Source: Fusobacterium mortiferum (lineage in GTDB: Bacteria; Fusobacteriota; Fusobacteriia; Fusobacteriales; Fusobacteriaceae). Taken from it: a stretch of DNA of 64,000 bases. Location of the stretch: the NCBI RefSeq assembly GCF_016900045.1, contig NZ_JACSNP010000002.1:62001-126000 (forward strand). Reading direction: 5' to 3'. Both the position numbers and the translations under genes were made by a program. This document shows positions 436-16,675 of this stretch, piece after piece (position 1 is the stretch's first letter; every line of letters starts with the position of its first letter). The notes under the pieces are model-generated. The model searched no databases. It saw nothing but the letters and a program-made list of their open reading frames with translations, and had not been told where the DNA came from.

Positions 436-1824
436 ATGGCAAAAACGAAGAGCTTTTATGTATGTAGTGAATGTGGATATAAGGCTAGTAAATGGGCTGG
501 AAAGTGTCCACAATGTGGTAGTTGGGGAAGTTTTGAAGAGGAGTTAGAAGTATCTTCTTCAGTGGGAGCTCCTATAGTATCATCAGTTACTTCTATAAGA
601 GAGACTTCAGAGAAAGTGTTTTCTTTTGATGAGGTAATAACAGAAGAGAGTGATAGATATAAGACTAGAATAGGAGAGTTTGATAGAGTATTAGGCGGAG
701 GATTACTATGTGGAGAAGTGGTACTAATAACTGGTAATCCTGGAATAGGGAAATCAACTTTACTGTTACAAGTAGCAAATGAGTATACTGCATATGGAGA
801 TGTAATCTATATATCAGGAGAGGAATCTCCAGCTCAAGTTAAAAACAGAGGAGAAAGATTAAAGATAAAGAGTAAAAATCTTTTTTTAATGTCGGAAACA
901 GATATCTCAAAAATTTATGAATATTTAATATCAAAAAAACCAAAAGTTGTTATTGTAGATTCTATACAAACATTGTATAATTCTATTGTGGATTCAATAC
1001 CAGGAACTCCGACTCAAATAAGAGAGTGTACATTAAAAATTATAGAATTAGCTAAAAAATATGGAATATCATTTTTTATAGTTGGACATATAACAAAAGA
1101 TGGAAAAGTGGCAGGACCAAAATTACTAGAACATATGGTAGATGCTGTATTTAACTTTGAAGGAGAAGAGGGACTCTTTTACAGAATTTTAAGAAGTACT
1201 AAAAATAGATTTGGATCAACTAATGAGTTAGCAGTGTTTAGCATGGAAGAGGATGGCATGAAAGAGATTAAAAACTCTTCAGAATATTTTTTAAGCGAAA
1301 GAGAAGAAAAAAATATAGGGAGCATGGTTGTTCCTGTTTTAGAAGGAACAAAAGTTTTTTTGCTAGAGATACAAACTCTTCTTACTGATGTAACAATAGG
1401 TATTCCTAAAAGAATTGTACAGGGATTTGATAGAAATAGAATTCAAATTCTTACGGCAATTGCTGAAAAAAAGATGTATATGAATTTAGCTATGAAAGAT
1501 CTTTTTGTAAATATTCCTGGAGGTCTTAATATAGAAGATCCAGCAGCTGATTTAGCTGTACTTATTTCAATGTTATCAATTTATAAAGGTGTTGAAATAA
1601 GCCAGAAAATTGCAGCTATTGGAGAATTGGGACTAAGAGGAGAGATTAGAAAGGTATTTTTCATTGATAAAAGACTTAGAGAATTGGAAAAATTAGGATT
1701 TAAGGGTGTTTATATTCCTGAGGCTAATAGAAAAGAGATAGAGAAAAATAGTTATAATTTAAAATTAATATATTTAAAAAATTTAGAAGAACTTTTGGAG
1801 AGGATGAATAAGGATGGACAGTAA
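436..1824 (+). CDS. radA: DNA repair protein RadA
   Basis: RadA (Sms) is a RecA-like ATPase that promotes branch migration during recombinational repair. The 462 residues match the family length. In order: a four-cysteine zinc finger (C10, C13, C24, C27), a RecA-like core with Walker A GNPGIGKS at about residue 100, the RadA-specific KNRFG motif at 256-260, and a C-terminal Lon-protease-like domain. The ATG at 436 lies just after the coaD stop. The 3' end overlaps disA by 11 bases, which suggests translational coupling. The radA-disA pairing is also common in Firmicutes, where DisA monitors DNA integrity. Confidence 0.97.
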   Translation: MAKTKSFYVCSECGYKASKWAGKCPQCGSWGSFEEELEVSSSVGAPIVSSVTSIRETSEKVFSFDEVITEESDRYKTRIGEFDRVLGGGLLCGEVVLITGNPGIGKSTLLLQVANEYTAYGDVIYISGEESPAQVKNRGERLKIKSKNLFLMSETDISKIYEYLISKKPKVVIVDSIQTLYNSIVDSIPGTPTQIRECTLKIIELAKKYGISFFIVGHITKDGKVAGPKLLEHMVDAVFNFEGEEGLFYRILRSTKNRFGSTNELAVFSMEEDGMKEIKNSSEYFLSEREEKNIGSMVVPVLEGTKVFLLEIQTLLTDVTIGIPKRIVQGFDRNRIQILTAIAEKKMYMNLAMKDLFVNIPGGLNIEDPAADLAVLISMLSIYKGVEISQKIAAIGELGLRGEIRKVFFIDKRLRELEKLGFKGVYIPEANRKEIEKNSYNLKLIYLKNLEELLERMNKDGQ

Positions 1825-2866
1825 AAAATTAGAGGAGATGCTGTCATTTGTAATACCTGGGACTGCTTTAAGAGAGGGATTGAATAATATACTTGAAGCT
1901 GGTCTGGGAGCTTTGATAGTAGTTGGTTATGATGAAAATGTAGAAAAAATATCAGATGGGGGATTTTATTTAGCATGTGATTTTACACCAGAAAGAGTGT
2001 ATGAATTAGCTAAGATGGATGGGGCTATTATTCTAGATGATGAATGTAAAAAAATAATGTATGCAAATGTACATTTACAACCAGATAGAAAATATACATC
2101 TACAGAGAGTGGAACAAGACATAGAACAGCTCAAAGAACAGGACAACAAACAGAGAAATTAGTAATAGCAGTTTCTGAGAGAAGAAATGTTATTACTTTG
2201 TATAAGGAAAATATAAGATATAGATTAAAAGATATAGGTTCAATAGGAAATGAAGCTTCTCAAGCTATAAAAACAATGGAGAGATATAAATCTGTATTAG
2301 ATAGAGCATTGGCAAATTTAACAATTTTGGAACTAGAAAATACAGTGACACTATATGATGTAGCTACAGCACTTCAAAGATTTGAAATGCTTAGAAGAAT
2401 TGGAGATGAAGTAAATAGTTGCGTAGTTGAATTAGGAGTAGAGGGAAGATTATTGAATCTTCAATTTCAAGATTTAAATCAAGATATAGAAGAAGATGAG
2501 TATGATTTAATAAGAGACTATATAGAAGATGGAATAGATTATAAAGAAGTAAGAGAAAGAATGAAAAGTTTAGATGATGAAGAGTTACTTCAATTGGAAA
2601 ATTTTTCACATGCTCTTGGCTATGGGAAAAGTTATAGTTTATTAGATAATGAAGTTAGTCCAAAAGGATATAGACTTTTAGGAAGAATAAGTAAACTTAC
2701 TAAAAAGGATATTGAAAAATTAATAGGAAAATATAATGGAATATCAAAACTTCAAGATGTTCCTGATGAAGAGCTTTCAGATATGAAGATTAGCAAAGTA
2801 AAAATAAAAGCTCTTAAAAGTGGGTTAAAAAGGTTAAAGTTAACAGTTGAATTAGAGAAAGTATAA
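1814..2866 (+). CDS. disA: DNA integrity scanning diadenylate cyclase DisA
   Basis: Condenses two ATP into cyclic di-AMP and, in characterised homologues, scans DNA for branched structures. The 350 residues carry the DAC domain first, with the catalytic DGA motif at 69-71 and the GTRHRTA motif at 100-106. A helical linker and a helix-hairpin-helix DNA-binding tail (LTKKDIEKLIGKYNGISKL region) follow. It overlaps radA by 11 bases and ends before a bidirectional terminator. Presence of both catalytic motifs implies an active cyclase, so the organism probably uses c-di-AMP. Confidence 0.97.
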   Translation: MDSKKLEEMLSFVIPGTALREGLNNILEAGLGALIVVGYDENVEKISDGGFYLACDFTPERVYELAKMDGAIILDDECKKIMYANVHLQPDRKYTSTESGTRHRTAQRTGQQTEKLVIAVSERRNVITLYKENIRYRLKDIGSIGNEASQAIKTMERYKSVLDRALANLTILELENTVTLYDVATALQRFEMLRRIGDEVNSCVVELGVEGRLLNLQFQDLNQDIEEDEYDLIRDYIEDGIDYKEVRERMKSLDDEELLQLENFSHALGYGKSYSLLDNEVSPKGYRLLGRISKLTKKDIEKLIGKYNGISKLQDVPDEELSDMKISKVKIKALKSGLKRLKLTVELEKV

Positions 2867-2884
2867 CTATAGAATAGTTACAAT

Positions 2885-2933
2885 AATAATAAAAGAGAGA
2901 CAATAATTAATTTTAGAGTCTCTCTTTATTATT
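2885..2933. terminator. bidirectional terminator between disA and deoC
   Basis: AATAATAAAAGAGAGAC at 2885-2901 pairs with GTCTCTCTTTATTATT at 2918-2933, with a one-base bulge. The stem is A-rich on the left and T-rich on the right, so it can end transcripts from either side. It sits between the convergent disA and deoC genes. Confidence 0.8.
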
Positions 2934-2968
2934 GTATAATTATTTTAATAATGAAACTAAGTTAAGAA

Positions 2969-3637
2969 TTAGTACATATTTTCAGCGTTTTCACCTTTTA
3001 TAATTTTAACTATTCTACTAGTTCCTAATCTATCAGCACCAAGTTCCATAAATTTAGCTGCATCTTCTAAAGATGATATTCCCCCAGCAGCTTTTATTTT
3101 TACATCTTTTCCAACATATTTTTTCATTAATGCTATATCATCAAAAGTAGCTCCACCAGTTGAAAATCCAGTAGAAGTTTTAATATATTCAGCACCAGAT
3201 TGAGTAACTATTTCACACATTTTAATTTTTTCCTCTTCAGTTAAAAGACAAGTTTCAATAATTACTTTCAATATCTTACCATTACAAGCCTTGTGAATAG
3301 CTTTTATCTCGTTTAGTATAGATTGGTAATCTCTATTTTTTACATCTCCAATATTGATAACCATATCTATTTCATCAGCACCATTTTTTATAGCATCTTC
3401 TGTTTCAAAAACTTTTACAGCAGTTGTAGAATACCCATTAGGAAATCCAATTACTGTACAGATAGCTAATTTACCATCTACATATTCTTTAGCTTTTTTT
3501 ACATATGAAGCAGGAATACAAGCAGAAGCCACTTCATATTTAATTCCATCATCAAGAATTTGCTTAATATCTTCCCAAGTAGCACTTTGAGTTAGTAATG
3601 TATGATCAACAGCATTTAATATTTTTTTTCTATCCAT
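2969..3637 (-). CDS. deoC: deoxyribose-phosphate aldolase
   Basis: Cleaves 2-deoxyribose 5-phosphate to acetaldehyde and glyceraldehyde 3-phosphate, the final step of deoxynucleoside breakdown. The 222-residue length is typical. Seen: the N-terminal DHTLL motif, [10 protein letters not shown], and the Schiff-base lysine in the [10 protein letters not shown] segment, with the [10 protein letters not shown] core strand. It is the last gene of the minus-strand nucleoside operon, 14 bases after deoB, and runs into the shared terminator with disA. Confidence 0.97.
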
Positions 3638-3651
3638 AACTACATCCTTTC

Positions 3652-4842
3652 TTAATTTAATTTATTTAATATTGAGTGTCCAATAGTATCTGTAGGCATA
3701 TTTAATTCAAAATTATCTACTATTGTAGCTCCAATTACTGCAAAAGTATCGAATTCTCCAAGATTTCCATTTTTATTAAAAGATGGAGAGTAAACTATGA
3801 ACGGAACTTTCTCTCTAGTATGGTCAGTTCCAATGTAAGTAGGGTCATTTCCATGATCAGCTGTTAGGATTAAAAGGTCGTCATCTTTTAATTTAGAAAG
3901 AAGAACTCCTAGATTTTTATCAAATTTTTCCAATTCCTCAGCATAACCTTGTGGATTTCTTCTATGTCCCCATAAGGCATCAAAATCTACTAAGTTTACA
4001 AAACAAAGACCTGTAAAATCTTTTTCAGCTAACTCAATAGTTTGTTCCATTCCATGTACAGAACTTTTAGACTTATGAGTTTCAGTGATACCCTCACCAT
4101 CAAATATATCATTAATTTTTCCTACTGAGATTACAGAGAAACCAGCTTCTTTTAAAGAATCAAGAGCTGTTTTACCAAAAGGTTTAAGAGCATAGTCGTG
4201 CCTGTTACTAGTTCTTTTAAATTCACCTTTTTTCTCTCCAACATATGGTCTAGCTATGATTCTTCCCACTTTCCATTCATCTTTCATAGTAAGTTCTCTA
4301 GCTATTTCACAATATTTATAAAGGTTATCAAGTCCCATATATTTTTCGTGTCCACAAATTTGTAAAACAGAATCAGCACTAGTATAGACTATCATATCAC
4401 CAGTAGCTATTTCATGTTCTCCATACTCATCTAGAATTTCAGTTCCACTAGCTGATTTATTTCCAACTACTTTACGACCACATCTTTTTTCCAATTCATC
4501 AATTAATTCTTTTGGAAATCCTGTATCTGTAAAAGTTTTAAAAGGAGTTTGGATATTTAATCCCATCATCTCCCAGTGTCCTGTCATAGTATCTTTTCCA
4601 ACACTAGTTTCATTTAGAGCAGCAAAATATCCTAAAGGATTAGATATAGAATCTACATTATCAATTGGATGTAAATTAGCAAGTCCTAATTTCTGAAGGT
4701 TTGGAATATGAAGAGTAGAAACAGACTTTGCTATGTTTCCAAGAGTATCAACCCCAACATCTCCAAATTTTTCAGAATCTTTCATAGCTCCAATCCCTAA
4801 AGAATCAAGTACTATTGTGAAAACTCTTTTATATCTTTTCAT
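3652..4842 (-). CDS. deoB: phosphopentomutase
   Basis: Interconverts (deoxy)ribose 1-phosphate and 5-phosphate, feeding the sugar released by the phosphorylases to DeoC or to the pentose phosphate pathway. The 396 residues match the alkaline-phosphatase-superfamily enzyme. Seen: the N-terminal metal-binding [10 protein letters not shown], the segment with the phospho-acceptor threonine ([10 protein letters not shown]), and the C-terminal metal ligands in TADHGNDPT and GTDHTRE. It lies 14 bases downstream of deoD and is preceded by an AGGAG-type ribosome-binding site. Confidence 0.97.
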
Positions 4843-4856
4843 AGAATTTCTCCTTA

Positions 4857-5567
4857 TTAGTCAACGAAAGTTTCTAAAGCTATCTCCATCATTTTAGTAA
4901 AGGCTGTTTGTCTCTCTTCTGGAGTAGTAACTTTATGTGAAGTAAAAGAGTCAGATATAGTTAAAAGACAAGCTGCTTTTTTACCTAAAACTTTTGCATT
5001 ATGGAATAATGCGAAGCTTTCCATCTCTACACAAGTACAACCATGTTTAGCAAAATGTTCTTTATATCCATCAACATTTGACTCAGCATAGAATACATCA
5101 CTTGAGTGAATTTTTTCTACATGTAAAGGGATTCCTAATCTTTTTGCAGTAGCTATAATTTTTTCATTTAACTCTTTATCAGGGTATACAGTGTCGCTTT
5201 CATAACCATTTTGAGTACGTGCAAATGTTGATTCACTCCATGCTGAATCAGCAAGAACAACATCATAAACATCTAATTTATCTACATAAGATCCAGAAGA
5301 TCCAACACGAACAATATTTTCAACTCCATATACATTGAACAGCTCATAAGAGTAGATTCCGATTGATGGCATTCCCATTCCAGAAGCCATTACTGTAATC
5401 TCTTTTCCTTTGTAAGTTCCTGTATAAGCAAGCATATTTCTTACAGAGTTAACTAACTTTATATTATCTAAAAATGTTTCAGCTATAAATTTAGCTCTTA
5501 AAGGGTCACCAGGCATTAAAACGTTTTTAGCAATCTCTCCTATTTTAGCATTATTGTGTGGTGTCAT
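4857..5567 (-). CDS. deoD: purine nucleoside phosphorylase, DeoD type
   Basis: Phosphorolyses purine (deoxy)nucleosides to free base and (deoxy)ribose 1-phosphate. At 236 residues it is the small hexameric bacterial class. Seen: the phosphate-binding [12 protein letters not shown] near the N terminus, [14 protein letters not shown], the RVGSSGSY segment, and the purine-site residues in VEMESFALF followed by LTISDSF. The ATG at 5567 is preceded by GGAGGA. It lies between cdd and deoB. Confidence 0.96.
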
Positions 5568-5582
5568 ATTATTTTCCTCCTA

Positions 5583-5999
5583 TTATTTTAAATCTTCACT
5601 TGTAAAAGAAAAAGGTAAAAGTTCAGCTATATTTGTAATCATAGCTTGAGAGCTAGTATTAGCAATTACTACCGGAGTATCATTTTTTAAAAGTTCTACC
5701 ATAACTTGTCTACAAGCTCCACAAGGGCTTCCAAGGGTATTTCCTCTAGTTACAACAGCCATAGATTCAATATCATCTTGTCTATATCCTAAAGAATATA
5801 CATGAAATAAAGCACTTCTCTCAGCACAGTTAGTAAGTCCATAGGAAGCATTTTCTATATTAGCCCCAACATGATACTTTCCATCAGTAGTTTTTATACA
5901 TGCTCCAACGTGATATTTAGAGTATGGTGCATAAGCTTTTTCCATAACTTCAAAAGCTTTATCTAAAATATCTTTATAATCTTCAAATATTTTTTGCAT
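5583..5999 (-). CDS. cdd: cytidine deaminase
   Basis: Deaminates cytidine and deoxycytidine to uridine and deoxyuridine, which Udp then splits. The zinc-dependent deaminase signatures are NCAERSALF (Cys ligand and catalytic Glu) and SPCGACRQVM (two Cys ligands). An ATG also exists in frame at 6014, but AGGAGG (complement of 6005-6010) lies between it and the ATG at 5999, so 5999 is the likely start. That gives 138 residues, normal for the homotetrameric class. It sits between nupC and deoD. Confidence 0.96.
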   Translation of the reverse strand: MQKIFEDYKDILDKAFEVMEKAYAPYSKYHVGACIKTTDGKYHVGANIENASYGLTNCAERSALFHVYSLGYRQDDIESMAVVTRGNTLGSPCGACRQVMVELLKNDTPVVIANTSSQAMITNIAELLPFSFTSEDLK

Positions 6000-6063
6000 A
6001 ATAACCTCCTTCAAGTACAGAAATTGAGGTTGAAAATCAACCTCAATATATTATAACATATTT

Positions 6064-7266
6064 TTAAATAATTGTAATAAATCCTACAACCATTGCACTT
6101 AAAATACTTACAGCAAAACCACCTATCATAGCTTTGAAAGCAAGTCTAGCAAGTACAGGTCTTTTTTCAGGACAAAGTATTGAGATACCAGAGATACAGA
6201 TTCCCATACTAGAGAAGTTAGCAAATCCAGCCATTGCAATACTTAACATAAGACCAGTTCTATAATCTAAAGAGGCTATATGTTGTCCTAAGTTTTGGAA
6301 GGCTACGAACTCATTTAATACTAATTTGAATCCTAGTAACTCTCCAGCATAGAATATATTTTCACCATCTAATCCCATGAAAAATCCAAATGGAGAGAAT
6401 ATATATGAAAAGATTCTTTCAAGACTCATTCCAAAAGTACCTAAAATACCATTTATTAGAGAAACGATAGATATGAAAGCTACAAGTGATGCAGCTATTG
6501 CAATAACAGCTTGAATACCATTCACAGCTCCTTCAGTAACAGCAGATATGATATTTTCGTGATGTCCTTTTCTATCCATACTTACATTTTCAACAACTTT
6601 AGCATGCTCAACTTCTGGTAATAAAACTTTTGATATAGCTATACTTCCAAATGGAACTAAGGCAGAAGCTGTAAGTAGATATTCCATTGGAATTCCTAGA
6701 GCAGTATATCCTCCAATAATTGTAGCAGACATACTTCCCATTCCTGAAACTAATACTACCATTATCTCACTTTGAGTCATATTTCCTAAGTACTTACTAA
6801 CAAGTATAGGACTTTCAGTTTGTCCTAAGAACATATTAGCAACAGCTACGAAACTTTCAACTTGTGTAGTCCCTAATATTTTACCAACTACTTTACCGAT
6901 AACTTTAACAATAGCTCCTAATATACCTAAGTAGAAAAGAGCAGCTACAAATGCTGAAAGAAATATGATGTTCCCAAGAGCACCGATTATGAATATAAAA
7001 CCAGTAGGTTGACTAGGGTCAGCTAAACTACCAAATACAAAAGATAATCCATTGAATCCATAACTAAGTATTTGAGTAACAACATCTGAAACTTTAGAAA
7101 CGACAGTTCTACCAAAAGGGAATTTAACTAAAAGTAGAGCTATAATAAATTGAGCTAAAATTCCCTTAATAACTATTGAAAATTTAATCTCCTTCTTATG
7201 TGATGAGATAAGATACAGTAGTCCAAATAATACAACTATACCAATTAAAATTATAATACCTTTCAT
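6064..7266 (-). CDS. nupC: concentrative nucleoside transporter (NupC family)
   Basis: An inner-membrane cation-coupled nucleoside symporter of the CNT family, 400 residues, with an N-terminal pore-type helix pair and repeated hydrophobic helices throughout. The family substrate-site motif GQTESPI is present in the middle, and a conserved Asn-Phe segment (GFANFSSMGI) lies near the end. It sits between udp and cdd, so it supplies the operon's substrates. The cation used and the purine/pyrimidine preference cannot be read from sequence alone. Confidence 0.95.
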   Translation of the reverse strand: MKGIIILIGIVVLFGLLYLISSHKKEIKFSIVIKGILAQFIIALLLVKFPFGRTVVSKVSDVVTQILSYGFNGLSFVFGSLADPSQPTGFIFIIGALGNIIFLSAFVAALFYLGILGAIVKVIGKVVGKILGTTQVESFVAVANMFLGQTESPILVSKYLGNMTQSEIMVVLVSGMGSMSATIIGGYTALGIPMEYLLTASALVPFGSIAISKVLLPEVEHAKVVENVSMDRKGHHENIISAVTEGAVNGIQAVIAIAASLVAFISIVSLINGILGTFGMSLERIFSYIFSPFGFFMGLDGENIFYAGELLGFKLVLNEFVAFQNLGQHIASLDYRTGLMLSIAMAGFANFSSMGICISGISILCPEKRPVLARLAFKAMIGGFAVSILSAMVVGFITII

Positions 7267-7290
7267 TGATCCTCCGTTTAATATAAATTA

Positions 7291-8073
7291 TTATAAAATA
7301 CCAGCTTCTTTATCTTGTTTAATTAGATTACGAATTGCTTGTACAGTGATCTCAATAGCTGATTCAGTATCGTGGATAACAGGATTTTCAAGACCTAATT
7401 TTTCTCTTTCTTGATTTGCTACAACTAAAAAAGATGAACCAACACGTACTTTTAAATAATCACCTACAACAAATAGAGCAGCAGATTCCATTTCTGATGC
7501 TTTGCATCCTAAACGTACCCAAGCATTCCATTTATTTATTAATTCATAATCAACAGGTTTTGTTTCAGGCTCATGTTGTCCATAAAAAGCATCCTTACAT
7601 TGAACAATACCTACATGGTACTTTTTATTTAATTCTTTAGCTGCTTGAACTAAAGCGTTAGTGATATCTAAATTTGCAACAGCAGGAAACTCTATAGGTG
7701 CATACTCCTTGCTAGTTCCCTCCATACGAATGGCTCCAGTAGCTATAACTAGATCTCCACCCATAATTTCAGGTTGCATTCCACCACAAGTACCAACTCT
7801 TAAGAATGTATCTGCTCCAACTCTTACAAGTTCTTCTAGAGCTATAGAAGCAGAAGGTCCTCCAATTCCAGTAGAAGTAACACTAACTTTAACTCCATCT
7901 AGATATCCAGTATAAGTAACATACTCTCTACTATCAGCAATAAGTTTAGCATTGTCAAAATGTTTTGCTATTTTTTCACAACGTTTAGGGTCACCAGGTA
8001 AAATTACATATTTACCAACATCACCCTTTCTTAACCCTATATGATATTGCATTCCTTCTTCAGCATATTTCAT
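7291..8073 (-). CDS. udp: uridine phosphorylase
   Basis: Phosphorolyses uridine (and often deoxyuridine or thymidine) to uracil and the sugar 1-phosphate. The 260 residues belong to the NP-I family: [14 protein letters not shown] phosphate loop, RVGTCGGMQ, and SEMESAALF in the sugar-binding region. The frame stays open to a TTG at 8079, but AGGAGG (complement of 8082-8087) is only 2 bases from it and 8 bases from the ATG at 8073, so 8073 is chosen. First gene of the nucleoside operon, directly behind the promoter at 8133-8161. Confidence 0.95.
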
Positions 8074-8116
8074 AATCAAAACCTCCTAAACAATTTAGAC
8101 GATGTCTATCAAGTTG

Positions 8117-12917: not shown

Positions 12918-13547
12918 ATGAAAAAGATATATAATTTAGAAAATATAGATCTTTTAGCTATAAAAAAATCACTAAAAGATGGAAAATTGATAGTTTATCC
13001 AACAGATACTGTCTATGGAGTAGGTGGAGTAATATCTTCGGAAGAAACTATAAAAAATATATATAGAGCCAAGGAGAGAAGTTTTAAATCACCTCTTATT
13101 GTTCTTGTAAGTGATATAGATAAGATAGAGGAGATAGCTTATATAGAGGATAAAAATAGAGAGGCTATAGATAAATTGATAAAAAATTTCTGGCCAGGTG
13201 GACTTACAATTATACTAAAAAAGAGAGAATGGGTTCCAGATATTATGACAGCAGAAGGAGATACTGTTGGAGTGAGAATGCCAGATTTAGATATAGCTTT
13301 AAAAATAATTAGAGCTGCTGGGGGATTACTTCCTACAACAAGTGCAAATATTTCTGGAGAAAAAACTCCAAGAGCCTATGAGGAGTTGTCAGAAGTTTTT
13401 AAAAATAGAGTTGATCTATTGATAGATGGAGGAAGATCTCCATTGGGAACAGAGTCTACAATAATTGATATGAGTGATAAGCCAAAAATACTAAGGTTAG
13501 GAGCAATTTCAATTGAAGATATAGAAAAAGTAATTGGAAAGATATAG
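12918..13547 (+). CDS. tsaC: L-threonylcarbamoyladenylate synthase (TsaC/Sua5 family)
   Basis: Makes threonylcarbamoyl-AMP from threonine, bicarbonate and ATP, the activated donor for t6A at position 37 of ANN-decoding tRNAs. 209 residues: a single YrdC domain with the ligand-site motifs YPTDTVYGVGG near residue 30, KxR-type RAKERSF and the SANISGEKTP segment. No Sua5 C-terminal domain, so it is the short TsaC-like form. A small unknown gene follows 10 bases later in a likely operon. Confidence 0.93.
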   Translation: MKKIYNLENIDLLAIKKSLKDGKLIVYPTDTVYGVGGVISSEETIKNIYRAKERSFKSPLIVLVSDIDKIEEIAYIEDKNREAIDKLIKNFWPGGLTIILKKREWVPDIMTAEGDTVGVRMPDLDIALKIIRAAGGLLPTTSANISGEKTPRAYEELSEVFKNRVDLLIDGGRSPLGTESTIIDMSDKPKILRLGAISIEDIEKVIGKI

Positions 13548-13557
13548 GGAGGAATTT

Positions 13558-13995
13558 ATGAGAACACAAAGAGTAAATCCAAATGGAATGAATCCAATGC
13601 AGATGAACAACATGTCTAGCATGATGGGAATGATGAACAATATTCAAAGAATAGGAAAAGGAAAAAGAAAGATAACTGTTAATTTAGATAAAAATAATAA
13701 GAAATTCCTATCTAAATTTATAGAAGAGGTAAAGAAACAATTTGCAACTTCAGCTATGGGTGTACAAGCAAGTGGATTAGGAGAATTTTTTGATTACGTA
13801 AAATCTGTTGCTGATACAAAGGATCAAATGGAGTTAAAGTTAAGTTTTGAAGAGTATGAGTTTTTAAAAAGAATGATAGTAGACTCTATAAAAGGTATGG
13901 AGGGAATGACTTTCAAGTGGTATCAATTTGTAAAAAAGGCGATGTTGAAAGTTATGGTAAAACAATATAGAGAATTATTAACAAAGTTTAAATAG
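13558..13995 (+). CDS. small Met-rich N-terminus protein, unknown function
   Basis: I do not recognise this 145-residue protein. The first 27 residues hold eight Met plus many Asn and Pro and look disordered. A basic segment (RIGKGKRKITVN) follows, then mostly amphipathic helices to a basic C terminus. No signal peptide or membrane helix. An ATG-free extension upstream overlaps tsaC, but GGGAGG just before 13558 fixes the ATG there. Co-transcribed with tsaC and ended by a strong hairpin. Codon use is like its neighbours, so it is probably a real, lineage-specific gene. Confidence 0.75.
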   Translation: MRTQRVNPNGMNPMQMNNMSSMMGMMNNIQRIGKGKRKITVNLDKNNKKFLSKFIEEVKKQFATSAMGVQASGLGEFFDYVKSVADTKDQMELKLSFEEYEFLKRMIVDSIKGMEGMTFKWYQFVKKAMLKVMVKQYRELLTKFK

Positions 13996-14072: not shown

Positions 14073-14705
14073 TTATATTTTAGATATAAGATGTTCAAAA
14101 GTAGATATAACATCAGCAAAAAATATTCCGTGATTTAAAACAAAAGAGTAATCTGACTTTTTTTCAACAGAAGAATCCTTCTTACCTATAAAACTGATTA
14201 TAGGGACATGATTTTTTTTAGCAATCTGTATCATATCAAGAAGGGATTCTGTTTCACCAGATTCGGATACAACAAATAAAATAGTGTTATTTGTTATATT
14301 TTCTAAAAGTTGGATATGACCGTTAGCTATGGAACGCTTTCCTAGAAGAGCCATTCTTTCATTCATGTAAGATGTTATATTATTAGCAATTCCAATAGAG
14401 CAAAACATAATTAAAGGATCATTATACTTTTTTATCAGCTCTAAAGGTATTAAGAGATTTATCTCGGTTTGAATATTTGGTTTTTTATTGGAGTTTTTAA
14501 TATAAAAAATCAGATCTGGGAAACTTTTAAAGCCAATTTTTTTAATACAGCTATAGATAACAGTAGTTGATGTATAGTTATCTTTAGCGGTTTCTCGAAT
14601 AGAGAGTTTCTGATTTTTATTTATTTTATTTTGAATGTAGAGAAGAATATTTTTTTCTAAATCATTTAATTTATGTTTTTTTACTATATAATTTATATCT
14701 AACAA
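14073..14705 (-). CDS. RpiR/MurR-family transcriptional regulator
   Basis: 210 residues: an N-terminal helix-turn-helix of the RpiR type (about residues 1-75, including SIRETAKDNYTSTTVIYSCIKKIGF) and a C-terminal SIS sugar-phosphate-binding domain (FVVSESGETESLLDMI, then VPIISFIGKKDSSVEKKSD). Such proteins sense phosphosugars. It is divergent from the RarA-C/PTS IIC pair 54 bases away and probably controls it. A TTG start is used: a stop lies three codons upstream and no suitable in-frame ATG exists, with GGTGA as a weak site. A TATAAT lies at 14728-14723 (minus strand). The SIS domain is slightly short. Confidence 0.85.
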   Translation of the reverse strand: MLDINYIVKKHKLNDLEKNILLYIQNKINKNQKLSIRETAKDNYTSTTVIYSCIKKIGFKSFPDLIFYIKNSNKKPNIQTEINLLIPLELIKKYNDPLIMFCSIGIANNITSYMNERMALLGKRSIANGHIQLLENITNNTILFVVSESGETESLLDMIQIAKKNHVPIISFIGKKDSSVEKKSDYSFVLNHGIFFADVISTFEHLISKI

Positions 14706-14759
14706 AGTACATCACCAATCATATTATACAATAAAAATTATAAAAAAAGGAGATATAAG

Positions 14760-15374
14760 ATGGGAAAAAAATTTATTACTGACCCTTGGGCAAGAACAAC
14801 TACAAGAAATGGATTAGCTGGAGATGAGGTTATATCAGCTCTTCAAAAATCAATAAGAAGAGGAAATGTAGAGGCAGCTTGTGAGTTTGCTTATGAAATG
14901 TATATTACTTCACCTCAAATGGAAGAAAAATTATGGAGAAGACTTACAGCTATATCTGTAGAAGATATAGGAATGGGAGATCCTATGGCAGCAGTACTTG
15001 TAAATAACTTAAGACAGATGAGAAAAGAGTATGCCTATGCTGATGGGGATAGACCAATATTCTTTATACATGCTATAAGATATCTTTGTAAATGTGAAAA
15101 AGATAGATCAAGTGATCTGTTAAAAAATATTGTAATAAAAAGTTTTGCAATGGGATATGTACCAGAAATTCCTGATTATGCATTAGATAAGCATACAGTA
15201 AGAGGAGCAGAGATGGGAAGAGACTCATTCCATTTCTTAAATGAAGCTAGTAAAGTTATTCCACAAAAAGAAGTAGATAATGATTATAAAGAGAGATATA
15301 ACAAGATATTAGAAAAGTATAATCCAGATGATGTAGTACCGTCAGCTTTTAAGTTTAATCCATGGCAAGAGTAA
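14760..15374 (+). CDS. free-standing RarA/MgsA C-terminal-domain protein
   Basis: 204 residues that resemble only the C-terminal part of the recombination factor RarA (MgsA, WRNIP1). Seen are the ALQKSIRRGNVEAAC segment, LWRRLTAISVEDIGMGDPMA, and the later MGRDSFHFLNEAS region, which aligns with the RarA tail. The AAA+ ATPase half (Walker A and B) is absent, and the ORF begins cleanly at an ATG with GGAG, so it is not an obvious truncation. It is followed 11 bases later by a PTS IIC gene and divergent from an RpiR regulator. Its function in such a locus is unknown; homology is by pattern, not search. Confidence 0.75.
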   Translation: MGKKFITDPWARTTTRNGLAGDEVISALQKSIRRGNVEAACEFAYEMYITSPQMEEKLWRRLTAISVEDIGMGDPMAAVLVNNLRQMRKEYAYADGDRPIFFIHAIRYLCKCEKDRSSDLLKNIVIKSFAMGYVPEIPDYALDKHTVRGAEMGRDSFHFLNEASKVIPQKEVDNDYKERYNKILEKYNPDDVVPSAFKFNPWQE

Positions 15375-15385
15375 TGGGAGGAGAT

Positions 15386-16675
15386 ATGGAAGGGAAATTT
15401 TTAGAAAGATTAGAAAAGGTATTATTACCAATAGGAAGTAAGTTAGGGAGTCAAAAACATCTTCAAGCTATATCAGTAGGAATGATGATGACACTTGCTC
15501 TTATAGTTGTAGGATCTTTATTCTTAATAGTGGCGAATCCACCGATAAATTTAGAATTAGTAGACCCAAATACAAGTAATATATTTTTACAATTTATGAT
15601 AGGTTGGAAAAAATTTGCTTTAGAGAATTATGATATAATAACAAAACCATTTAATTTTACAATGGGAGTAGTTGGACTTATGACAGCTTTTACTATAGCT
15701 TATTCCTTAGCTAATGAGTACAAGCTAAATAATTTAACATCTGGTTTAATCTCAATGACAACTTTCTTAATGATAGCAGCTCCAATTGAAGATGGTAAAA
15801 TTGTGATGCATTATCTAGGAGCAGATGGATTATTTATAGCTATCATTATTTCACTAGTAAGTGTTGAAATATCTATGTTGGTAGAGAGACTAGGATGGAA
15901 GTTTAAAAGTGAGCATATACCACCAGCTGTACTTTCATTTATGAATGCTTTAATACCATTACTTTTAAATATTATTATAATTTATGGTTTAAGTGTAATA
16001 ATTTTTGTAAAAACAGGAAAAACTATTCCAGATTTAATAATGGCTGTATTAACACCAGCTTTAAATATAGGAAATAACATTTGGGGATACTTAGCAATAT
16101 TAGTTTTTGGAAATATATTATGGTTATTTGGAATAAATGGAACATCAGTTATATTCCCAATAATATTTGCTATTGGAATTGCAAATACTGGAATTAATGC
16201 TGAACTTGTAAGACAGGGAAAAGAACCAGAGATGTTGATGAACCTTCAAATGTTCAGAGTTGCTATAATGGGAGGAGCTGGAAATACATTAGGGTTAATT
16301 ATTTTAATGCTAAGAAGTAAATCAGAGCAACTGAAAACACTGGGAAAATTAGCTTTTGTTCCAGGGATTTGTGGAATAAATGAGCCAGTGATATTTGGAA
16401 CTCCAATAATATTTAATCCGATATTGGGATTACCATTTTTACTTACTCCTATTGTAACAGTTTCAATGACATATATAGCTCAAAAAATAGGATTAATTTC
16501 TATGGGATATATTGTAGACCCATCATTTGCTCCATTTTTTATACAAGGATATTTATCATCACTAGATGTTAGAAACTTAATATTCTACTTCCTTTTAGTT
16601 GTAGTAAGTCTTATTATCTATTTCCCATTCTTTAAAGTGTATGAGAAAAATTTAATAGCTCAAGAGGAAGAGTAA
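15386..16675 (+). CDS. PTS EIIC component, lactose/cellobiose (CelB) family
   Basis: Membrane permease subunit of a sugar phosphotransferase system, 429 residues with about ten hydrophobic helices. The IIC signature region reads FVPGICGINEPVIFGTPI, with the conserved NEP motif that contacts sugar. An in-frame ATG exists at 15362 inside the upstream gene, but GGGAGGAG at 15376-15383 points to the ATG at 15386. No IIA or IIB gene and no phospho-glycosidase lies nearby, so partners must come from elsewhere. The substrate is probably a beta-diglucoside such as cellobiose or N,N'-diacetylchitobiose, by family. Confidence 0.92.
   Translation: MEGKFLERLEKVLLPIGSKLGSQKHLQAISVGMMMTLALIVVGSLFLIVANPPINLELVDPNTSNIFLQFMIGWKKFALENYDIITKPFNFTMGVVGLMTAFTIAYSLANEYKLNNLTSGLISMTTFLMIAAPIEDGKIVMHYLGADGLFIAIIISLVSVEISMLVERLGWKFKSEHIPPAVLSFMNALIPLLLNIIIIYGLSVIIFVKTGKTIPDLIMAVLTPALNIGNNIWGYLAILVFGNILWLFGINGTSVIFPIIFAIGIANTGINAELVRQGKEPEMLMNLQMFRVAIMGGAGNTLGLIILMLRSKSEQLKTLGKLAFVPGICGINEPVIFGTPIIFNPILGLPFLLTPIVTVSMTYIAQKIGLISMGYIVDPSFAPFFIQGYLSSLDVRNLIFYFLLVVVSLIIYFPFFKVYEKNLIAQEEE

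Follow-up and report, generated by a model that had tools for sequence, protein, structure and literature searches.

Results

The RARC locus in Fusobacterium mortiferum

The window, a stretch of 64,000 nucleotides of Fusobacterium mortiferum DNA, contains an intact open reading frame of the plus strand whose 204-aa product, here referred to as RARC, is a stand-alone RarA C-terminal (MgsA_C) domain protein. It is flanked by a divergent regulator gene and a gene for a PTS IIC component. The features of the locus are:

14073..14705, minus strand: RpiR/MurR-type regulator (HTH_6 and SIS domains), short (210 aa), divergent; PF01418 1.2e-7, PF01380 5.5e-10
14706..14759, no strand: divergent intergenic region of 54 bp with the ribosome-binding site of RARC (GGAG, 14749-14752) ahead of its ATG
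14760..15374, plus strand: RARC, stand-alone RarA C-terminal (MgsA_C) domain protein, 204 aa; open reading frame, Pfam, PDB matches, AlphaFold2, Foldseek
15174..15236, plus strand: diagnostic motif D-x3-D-K-H-T-x-R-G-x3-G-R-x-S-x-H-F, RARC codons 139-159; alignment, codons checked
15386..16675, plus strand: lactose/cellobiose (lac/cel)-family PTS EIIC; PF02378 3.9e-42, TIGR00410, 3qnq 1.5e-53
16136..16138, plus strand: Asn codon in G-I-N-G of the IIC, aligned with H250 of bcChbC (3qnq)
16382..16384, plus strand: Glu codon in N-E-P of the IIC, aligned with E334 of bcChbC

The first-pass annotation had described a complete gene with its own ribosome-binding site, directly before a lone PTS IIC gene and opposite an RpiR regulator, and all of this agrees with the present results. 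The regulator is real, if short, and the IIC passes the TIGR00410 cut-off of 236 with 287.8 bits. No IIA or IIB is found among the open reading frames adjoining the IIC gene, and the locus is not a complete PTS; two lac/cel EIIA genes are located elsewhere in the genome. An alternative in-frame start of the IIC at 15362 overlaps RARC by 13 nt, but the start at 15386, just past the RARC stop codon, is the likely one, since homologues align from there and an AGGAG lies ahead of it. A conserved palindromic operator for RpiR common to the upstream regions compared was not found.

RARC has the predicted fold of the RarA C-terminal domain but forms a family of its own

The sole Pfam match of RARC is PF12002 (MgsA_C; 1.5e-8), and with 35.2 bits against a curated cut-off of 27 the protein falls within the MgsA_C superfamily. 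All matches to PDB sequences with E<0.01 are C-terminal regions of the RarA family (2r9g, E 1.2e-10), the alignment to RarA beginning at residue 11-38 of 204. Neither Pfam nor PDB matches reveal an AAA+ ATPase domain, so that the description as an orphan RarA C-terminal-domain gene is borne out. An AlphaFold2 model computed with 56 homologues is nearly all helix (mean pLDDT 93.6), and its 20 best Foldseek hits in the PDB are RarA C-terminal domains (including 2r9g, 3pvs, 3bge and 3ctd); further down follow clamp-loader subunits (RFC, T4) with insignificant E-values. The BFVD matches include proteins of giant viruses (among them pitho-, pandora- and cedratviruses) with RarA-CTD-like folds, some of which carry an annotation as glycosyltransferase or as DUF4326 protein. 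RARC was also considered as a defence gene, a reading which was rejected as it matches no anti-phage defence model in PADLOC.

The phylogeny and the genome search proposed in the first-pass annotation both separate RARC from RarA. In a tree of 96 rows, a long branch with 100/100 support parts nine RarAs from all 87 stand-alone proteins, among which the phage and plasmid proteins are long-branched and of unsure placement. Judged from these sequences, RARC is a distinct family apart from the RarA domains sampled. It may derive from RarA, or both may derive from a common domain; the tree is compatible with either order. The attribute "DNA-repair-derived", given to the domain in the earlier reading, is therefore unsupported: the tree is silent on which came first, and no recurring repair gene was seen beside RARC.

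If RARC were the functionless leftover of a rarA gene that had been broken or truncated, this would explain why it aligns with the C-terminal half of RarA, but such an origin is almost certainly wrong. The idea is already refuted by the conservation of RARC, which keeps 68-90% identity across phyla together with an invariant motif. Furthermore, the second MgsA_C gene of the genome, located on another contig, is a full-length rarA whose open frame spans 414 aa, which shows that RARC is not a damaged rarA; the ribosome-binding site of RARC and its separate clade point the same way.

A conserved motif distinguishes RARC from RarA

The residues D143, H145, T146 and G149 are invariant across 83 core and wider RARCs, and G153 and R154 are nearly so. 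The four invariant residues are also kept in relatives from phages, haloarchaeal plasmids and Bradyrhizobium. Several RarAs have D-x-H-Y at this position, whereas the Thr (T146) occurs in none of the RarAs aligned. RARC and RarA C-terminal domains have S26, K30, R33, R61, E68, D69 and K114 in common. Together with K114, R116, D119, E46 and W59, the motif makes up a conserved set such as would be expected at a ligand-binding or active site.

Linkage of RARC to PTS genes

The linkage to PTS genes, for which the first-pass annotation had suggested a neighbourhood survey, recurs in relatives. Among 70 gene instances at the fetched loci (not de-duplicated, and with four GC-rich Coriobacterial loci lost in gene calling), a IIC gene follows RARC directly on the same strand in 57 and a divergent RpiR gene precedes it in 53. 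In 98 Fusobacteriota genomes, RARC and its cognate IIC (at least 55% identity) occur in the same 10, adjacent each time and never apart; the remaining lac/cel IICs listed in these genomes are at most 40% identical to the cognate IIC.

The RARC-linked lac/cel IICs mostly carry Asn (G-I/V-N-G) at the position of bcChbC H250. This form need not mean a loss of phosphorylation, since it is found with a complete IIA/IIB set at two loci (L018, L044). Ordinary G-L-H-G IICs are also paired with RARC (L021, L034, L036, L040, L047, L048). One further IIC encoded in the genome of the window (L114) has GINS.

Distribution and mobility of the family

A scan of GTDB species genomes and the 98 Fusobacteriota genomes revealed RARC in Fusobacteriaceae, Clostridia, Enterococcus, Vagococcus, Lactobacillus, Trichococcus, Erysipelotrichaceae-like genomes and Coriobacteria. 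The relatives are mostly 68-90% identical along some 200 aa, which is far above chance level for proteins from Fusobacteriota, Clostridia, Bacilli and Coriobacteria. Alignment searches detected RARC in 19 of 298 genomes from the class Anaerolineae, in 8 of 199 from the order to which a Collinsella belongs and in 4 of 392 from the order that includes Faecalimonas, for which the name Lachnospirales is used here. Cetobacterium and Enterococcus plasmids also carry the gene, and its patchy occurrence together with these plasmid copies would fit horizontal transfer. On the conjugative plasmid 3 of E. faecium DO (L102), an IS110-family transposase gene lies between RARC and its IIC.

In a sister genome that lacks RARC (G020), the gene corresponding to 13534-13995 of the window, upstream of rpiR, and obgE adjoin directly, 226 bp apart. 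Thus, RpiR-RARC-IIC behaves as a cassette that some genomes have and others lack between two conserved genes. The gene at 13534-13995, which marks the insertion site, encodes a 153-aa protein without Pfam or NCBIfam match and occurs in 12 of 12 genomes of the genus.

With respect to viruses, PHROG 16866 and 33349 match RARC. Two genes of Microbacterium and Arthrobacter phages (L105, 3983-4603; L147, 5938-6657) are named "AAA-ATPase"; their products of about 200-240 aa align over the RarA C-terminal domain and contain the RARC motif. Because of this length and an alignment confined to the C-terminal domain, the name is probably misleading. As to a phage origin of RARC, a scan of viral contigs yielded no confirmed relative, and a motif-pattern scan likewise none, but that pattern also missed a phage locus whose protein has the very motif, which makes the pattern scan uninformative. 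No paper on the stand-alone family was found in the open-licence literature.

Nucleoside and sugar ABC contexts of RARC in relatives

The placement of RARC in a sugar-uptake PTS locus, as first proposed, is confirmed as far as PTS linkage is concerned but does not tell the whole story, since nucleoside/sugar ABC and nucleoside-catabolic contexts occur as well. In the Anaerolineae, RARC genes adjoin genes for a Bmp/PnrA binding protein, a double ABC ATPase and BPD_transp_2 permeases, and the loci also contain a nucleoside hydrolase, an SsnA-like deaminase and at times an M20 hydrolase. Bmp/PnrA proteins are binders of purine nucleosides (PMC7093131). A comparison of 18 RARC windows with 20 control windows from other parts of four of these contigs gave SsnA-like genes in 9 versus 0, nucleoside hydrolase in 8 versus 0 and Bmp in 8 versus 0. 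At least one of the three was present in 11/18 versus 0/20 (Fisher P=2.6e-5, a value that overstates independence because the three references were picked from RARC neighbourhoods and the 18 windows are interrelated, some of them short).

A similar arrangement is found in one Lachnospirales genome (L172), with LacI, a YjjI-like glycyl radical enzyme, an SsnA-like deaminase, ABC genes, RARC and Bmp. The gene run that holds RARC there also encodes, at 1559-3875, a radical-SAM protein next to this glycyl radical enzyme gene. Sugar-type ABC operons with RARC occur on a plasmid (L106) and on a faecal "phage" contig (L148). No PTS gene was seen at the ABC-linked loci L106, L148, L172 and those of the Anaerolineae. 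Within the stand-alone clade, the Anaerolineae split off first, followed by L172 and by L106/L148, all of them outside the PTS clade to which the RARC of the window belongs. The PTS context thus looks derived from the ABC context, with a root that rests on RarA.

Nucleoside genes are also found within the PTS clade. The locus L170 comprises a guanine-deaminase-like gene, IIC, LicR, a gene of 100 aa (unlabelled, at the place where IIB usually stands), IIA, RARC, GH4, a YczE-like membrane gene, DeoD and DeoB, and L066 comprises LicR, IIA, IIB, IIC, GH4, RARC, a nucleoside hydrolase and a ribokinase. At L047 and L048 a DeoD-type phosphorylase gene overlaps RARC, and four Coriobacteria have the order RARC-IIC-guanine-deaminase-like. 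DeoD and DeoB of L170 exceed their NCBIfam cut-offs, whereas the guanine deaminases fall below theirs. In total, 18 of 75 loci match the nucleoside gene set, some weakly or several kb off, which for the Firmicutes stands as a raw count, the control windows covering the Anaerolineae only. Most Firmicutes loci are a bare RpiR-RARC-IIC without a nucleoside gene within about 6 kb. A close DeoD is absent from the RARC-bearing Cetobacterium-type genomes, and the haloarchaeal-plasmid and phage relatives have the motif but no nucleoside genes nearby.

Other neighbours were seen at individual loci. An apiosidase-like gene directly follows RARC at L173 (3677-6037, with sugar ABC genes) and L174 (6821-9008, with LacI); apiose in glycosides is a furanose, as is ribose in nucleosides. 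A cytochrome P450 gene lies beside or near RARC in two Anaerolineae (L178, 7363-9145; L184, 9014-11486).

The window itself harbors a complete-looking nucleoside catabolism operon on the minus strand (2969-8079; udp, nupC-like, cdd, deoD, deoB, deoC), about 6 kb from RARC; deoD and deoB were assigned by homology search and the others were read by eye. It was dropped as support for a nucleoside role, being on the opposite strand, 6 kb away and present in the absence of RARC. The operon is found at the same site in sister genomes with and without RARC, and is hence independent of it. In the window, RARC's own transcription unit contains no nucleoside-specific enzyme or importer gene, and the linked parts are only RpiR and IIC; genes of this kind accompany RARC in the Anaerolineae, L172, L170, L066, L047, L048 and the Coriobacteria.

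Discussion

A proposed role in nutrient uptake and its alternatives

Our leading explanation, to which we assign an even chance, is that RARC represents a soluble family with the RarA collar fold that acts in nutrient-uptake modules and not at replication forks, where it would serve the uptake and catabolism of nucleoside- or furanoside-like compounds. The substrate class is suggested by the relatives that have ABC importers of nucleosides or of sugars, or enzymes of nucleoside catabolism, as partners; what the domain tracks thus seems to be the substrate and not the PTS. RARC and the lac/cel EIIC would form a two-gene transcription unit with the divergent RpiR gene adjoining. RpiR might sense a phosphorylated intermediate and control this unit, while EIIC would take up a glycoside-like substrate, served in trans by EIIA, and probably by EIIB, from elsewhere in the genome. 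In the cytoplasm, RARC would process or bind the nucleoside or furanoside part of the substrate. It is probably an enzyme or a ligand-binding protein built around D-x-H-T-x2-G-x3-G-R, with a putative site of D139-D143-H145-T146-R148-G149-R154-H158 plus K114, R116, D119, R61, E68 and D69. Evidence against this reading comes from the bare RpiR-RARC-IIC loci that prevail in Firmicutes, the Cetobacterium-type genomes lacking a close DeoD, the relatives accompanied by an apiosidase and a sugar ABC importer or by P450, and the haloarchaeal-plasmid relatives, where nucleoside genes were not seen.

A bolder version, which we put forward tentatively as somewhat improbable, holds that RARC is an undescribed enzyme family in which the collar fold has, or has retained, a catalytic function on nucleosides or nucleoside glycosides with D-x-H-T-x2-G-x3-G-R as its site, and that the paired lac/cel IICs import nucleoside-like compounds. 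To our knowledge, this substrate class has not been known for the lac/cel PTS family. The conserved D-x-H-Y loop of some RarAs would then either be left over from a ligand site in RarA itself or hint at one.

That RARC nearly always adjoins IIC in the PTS clade, and that the two are strictly co-present in Fusobacteriota, could also be expected of an EIIC-specific PTS accessory (an assembly factor or a coupling or regulatory subunit) without any link to nucleosides, whose nucleoside neighbours would reflect what some PTS operons import, and the Asn at the H250 position of most linked IICs could call for such a helper. We consider this unlikely, as relatives stand in ABC operons where no PTS gene was seen, RARC pairs with ordinary G-L-H-G IICs too, and the Asn form occurs with complete IIA/IIB sets and in the additional IIC with GINS. 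A non-catalytic ligand-sensing partner of the local regulator (RpiR, LicR or LacI) appears distinctly less probable. A regulator is usually near RARC in the PTS clade, in most instances the divergent RpiR, but these regulators belong to unrelated families (RpiR, LicR/PRD, LacI, two-component) with RARC as the constant, and its roughly 20 invariant polar residues would seem to exceed the needs of a simple adaptor. Very improbable, in our estimation, is that RARC regulates RarA, and thereby replication or repair, by forming mixed collars through the tetramerisation domain and tuning RarA to the sugar state. This would agree with the common fold, the residues held in common with RarA and the co-occurrence of an intact RarA in several genomes. 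Against it stand the long separating branch, the lack of T146 in the aligned RarAs and a linkage to transport and catabolism genes in which no recurring DNA-repair gene was seen.

The role in nutrient use proposed here gives a testable function to a family that is present in gut Firmicutes, Fusobacteria, Coriobacteria, Chloroflexi, phages and archaeal plasmids and is deposited as "hypothetical protein" or "AAA-ATPase". If it is true, a domain known solely as an oligomerisation module of DNA repair would have a second, metabolic life. RARC would also provide a route to the substrates of many lone PTS IIC genes, and its motif directs attention to the function of the corresponding loop in RarA.

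Comparison with known systems

Stand-alone MgsA_C proteins are also encoded by phages of Microbacterium and Arthrobacter and by plasmids of haloarchaea and Bradyrhizobium; these proteins resemble RARC in size (184-262 aa) and in the motif D-x-H-T-x2-G-x3-G. They are only 28-35% identical to it, and unlike RARC they have no PTS or nucleoside importer nearby. The PnrA/Bmp operons for purine nucleosides are the setting in which the RARCs of the Anaerolineae and L172 are found; these operons encode an ABC importer, whereas the window and most Firmicutes loci have a PTS IIC. RARC is not known as a part of the PnrA operons described so far. Among the lac/cel/chitobiose EIICs (TIGR00410; bcChbC, 3qnq), the IIC of the window is a full-length member that keeps the position of E334, but it has Asn where bcChbC has H250, is paired with RARC and lacks adjacent IIA and IIB genes. 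The closest known system is the C-terminal domain (PF12002) of RarA/MgsA of the WRNIP1/Mgs1 family, which has the same predicted fold and whose Pfam cut-off RARC exceeds. RarA/MgsA possesses AAA+ and lid domains, both missing in RARC, and carries D-x-H-Y or nothing at the place of D-x-H-T-x2-G-x3-G-R; RARC further differs from it by its metabolic gene context and its fully supported separate clade.
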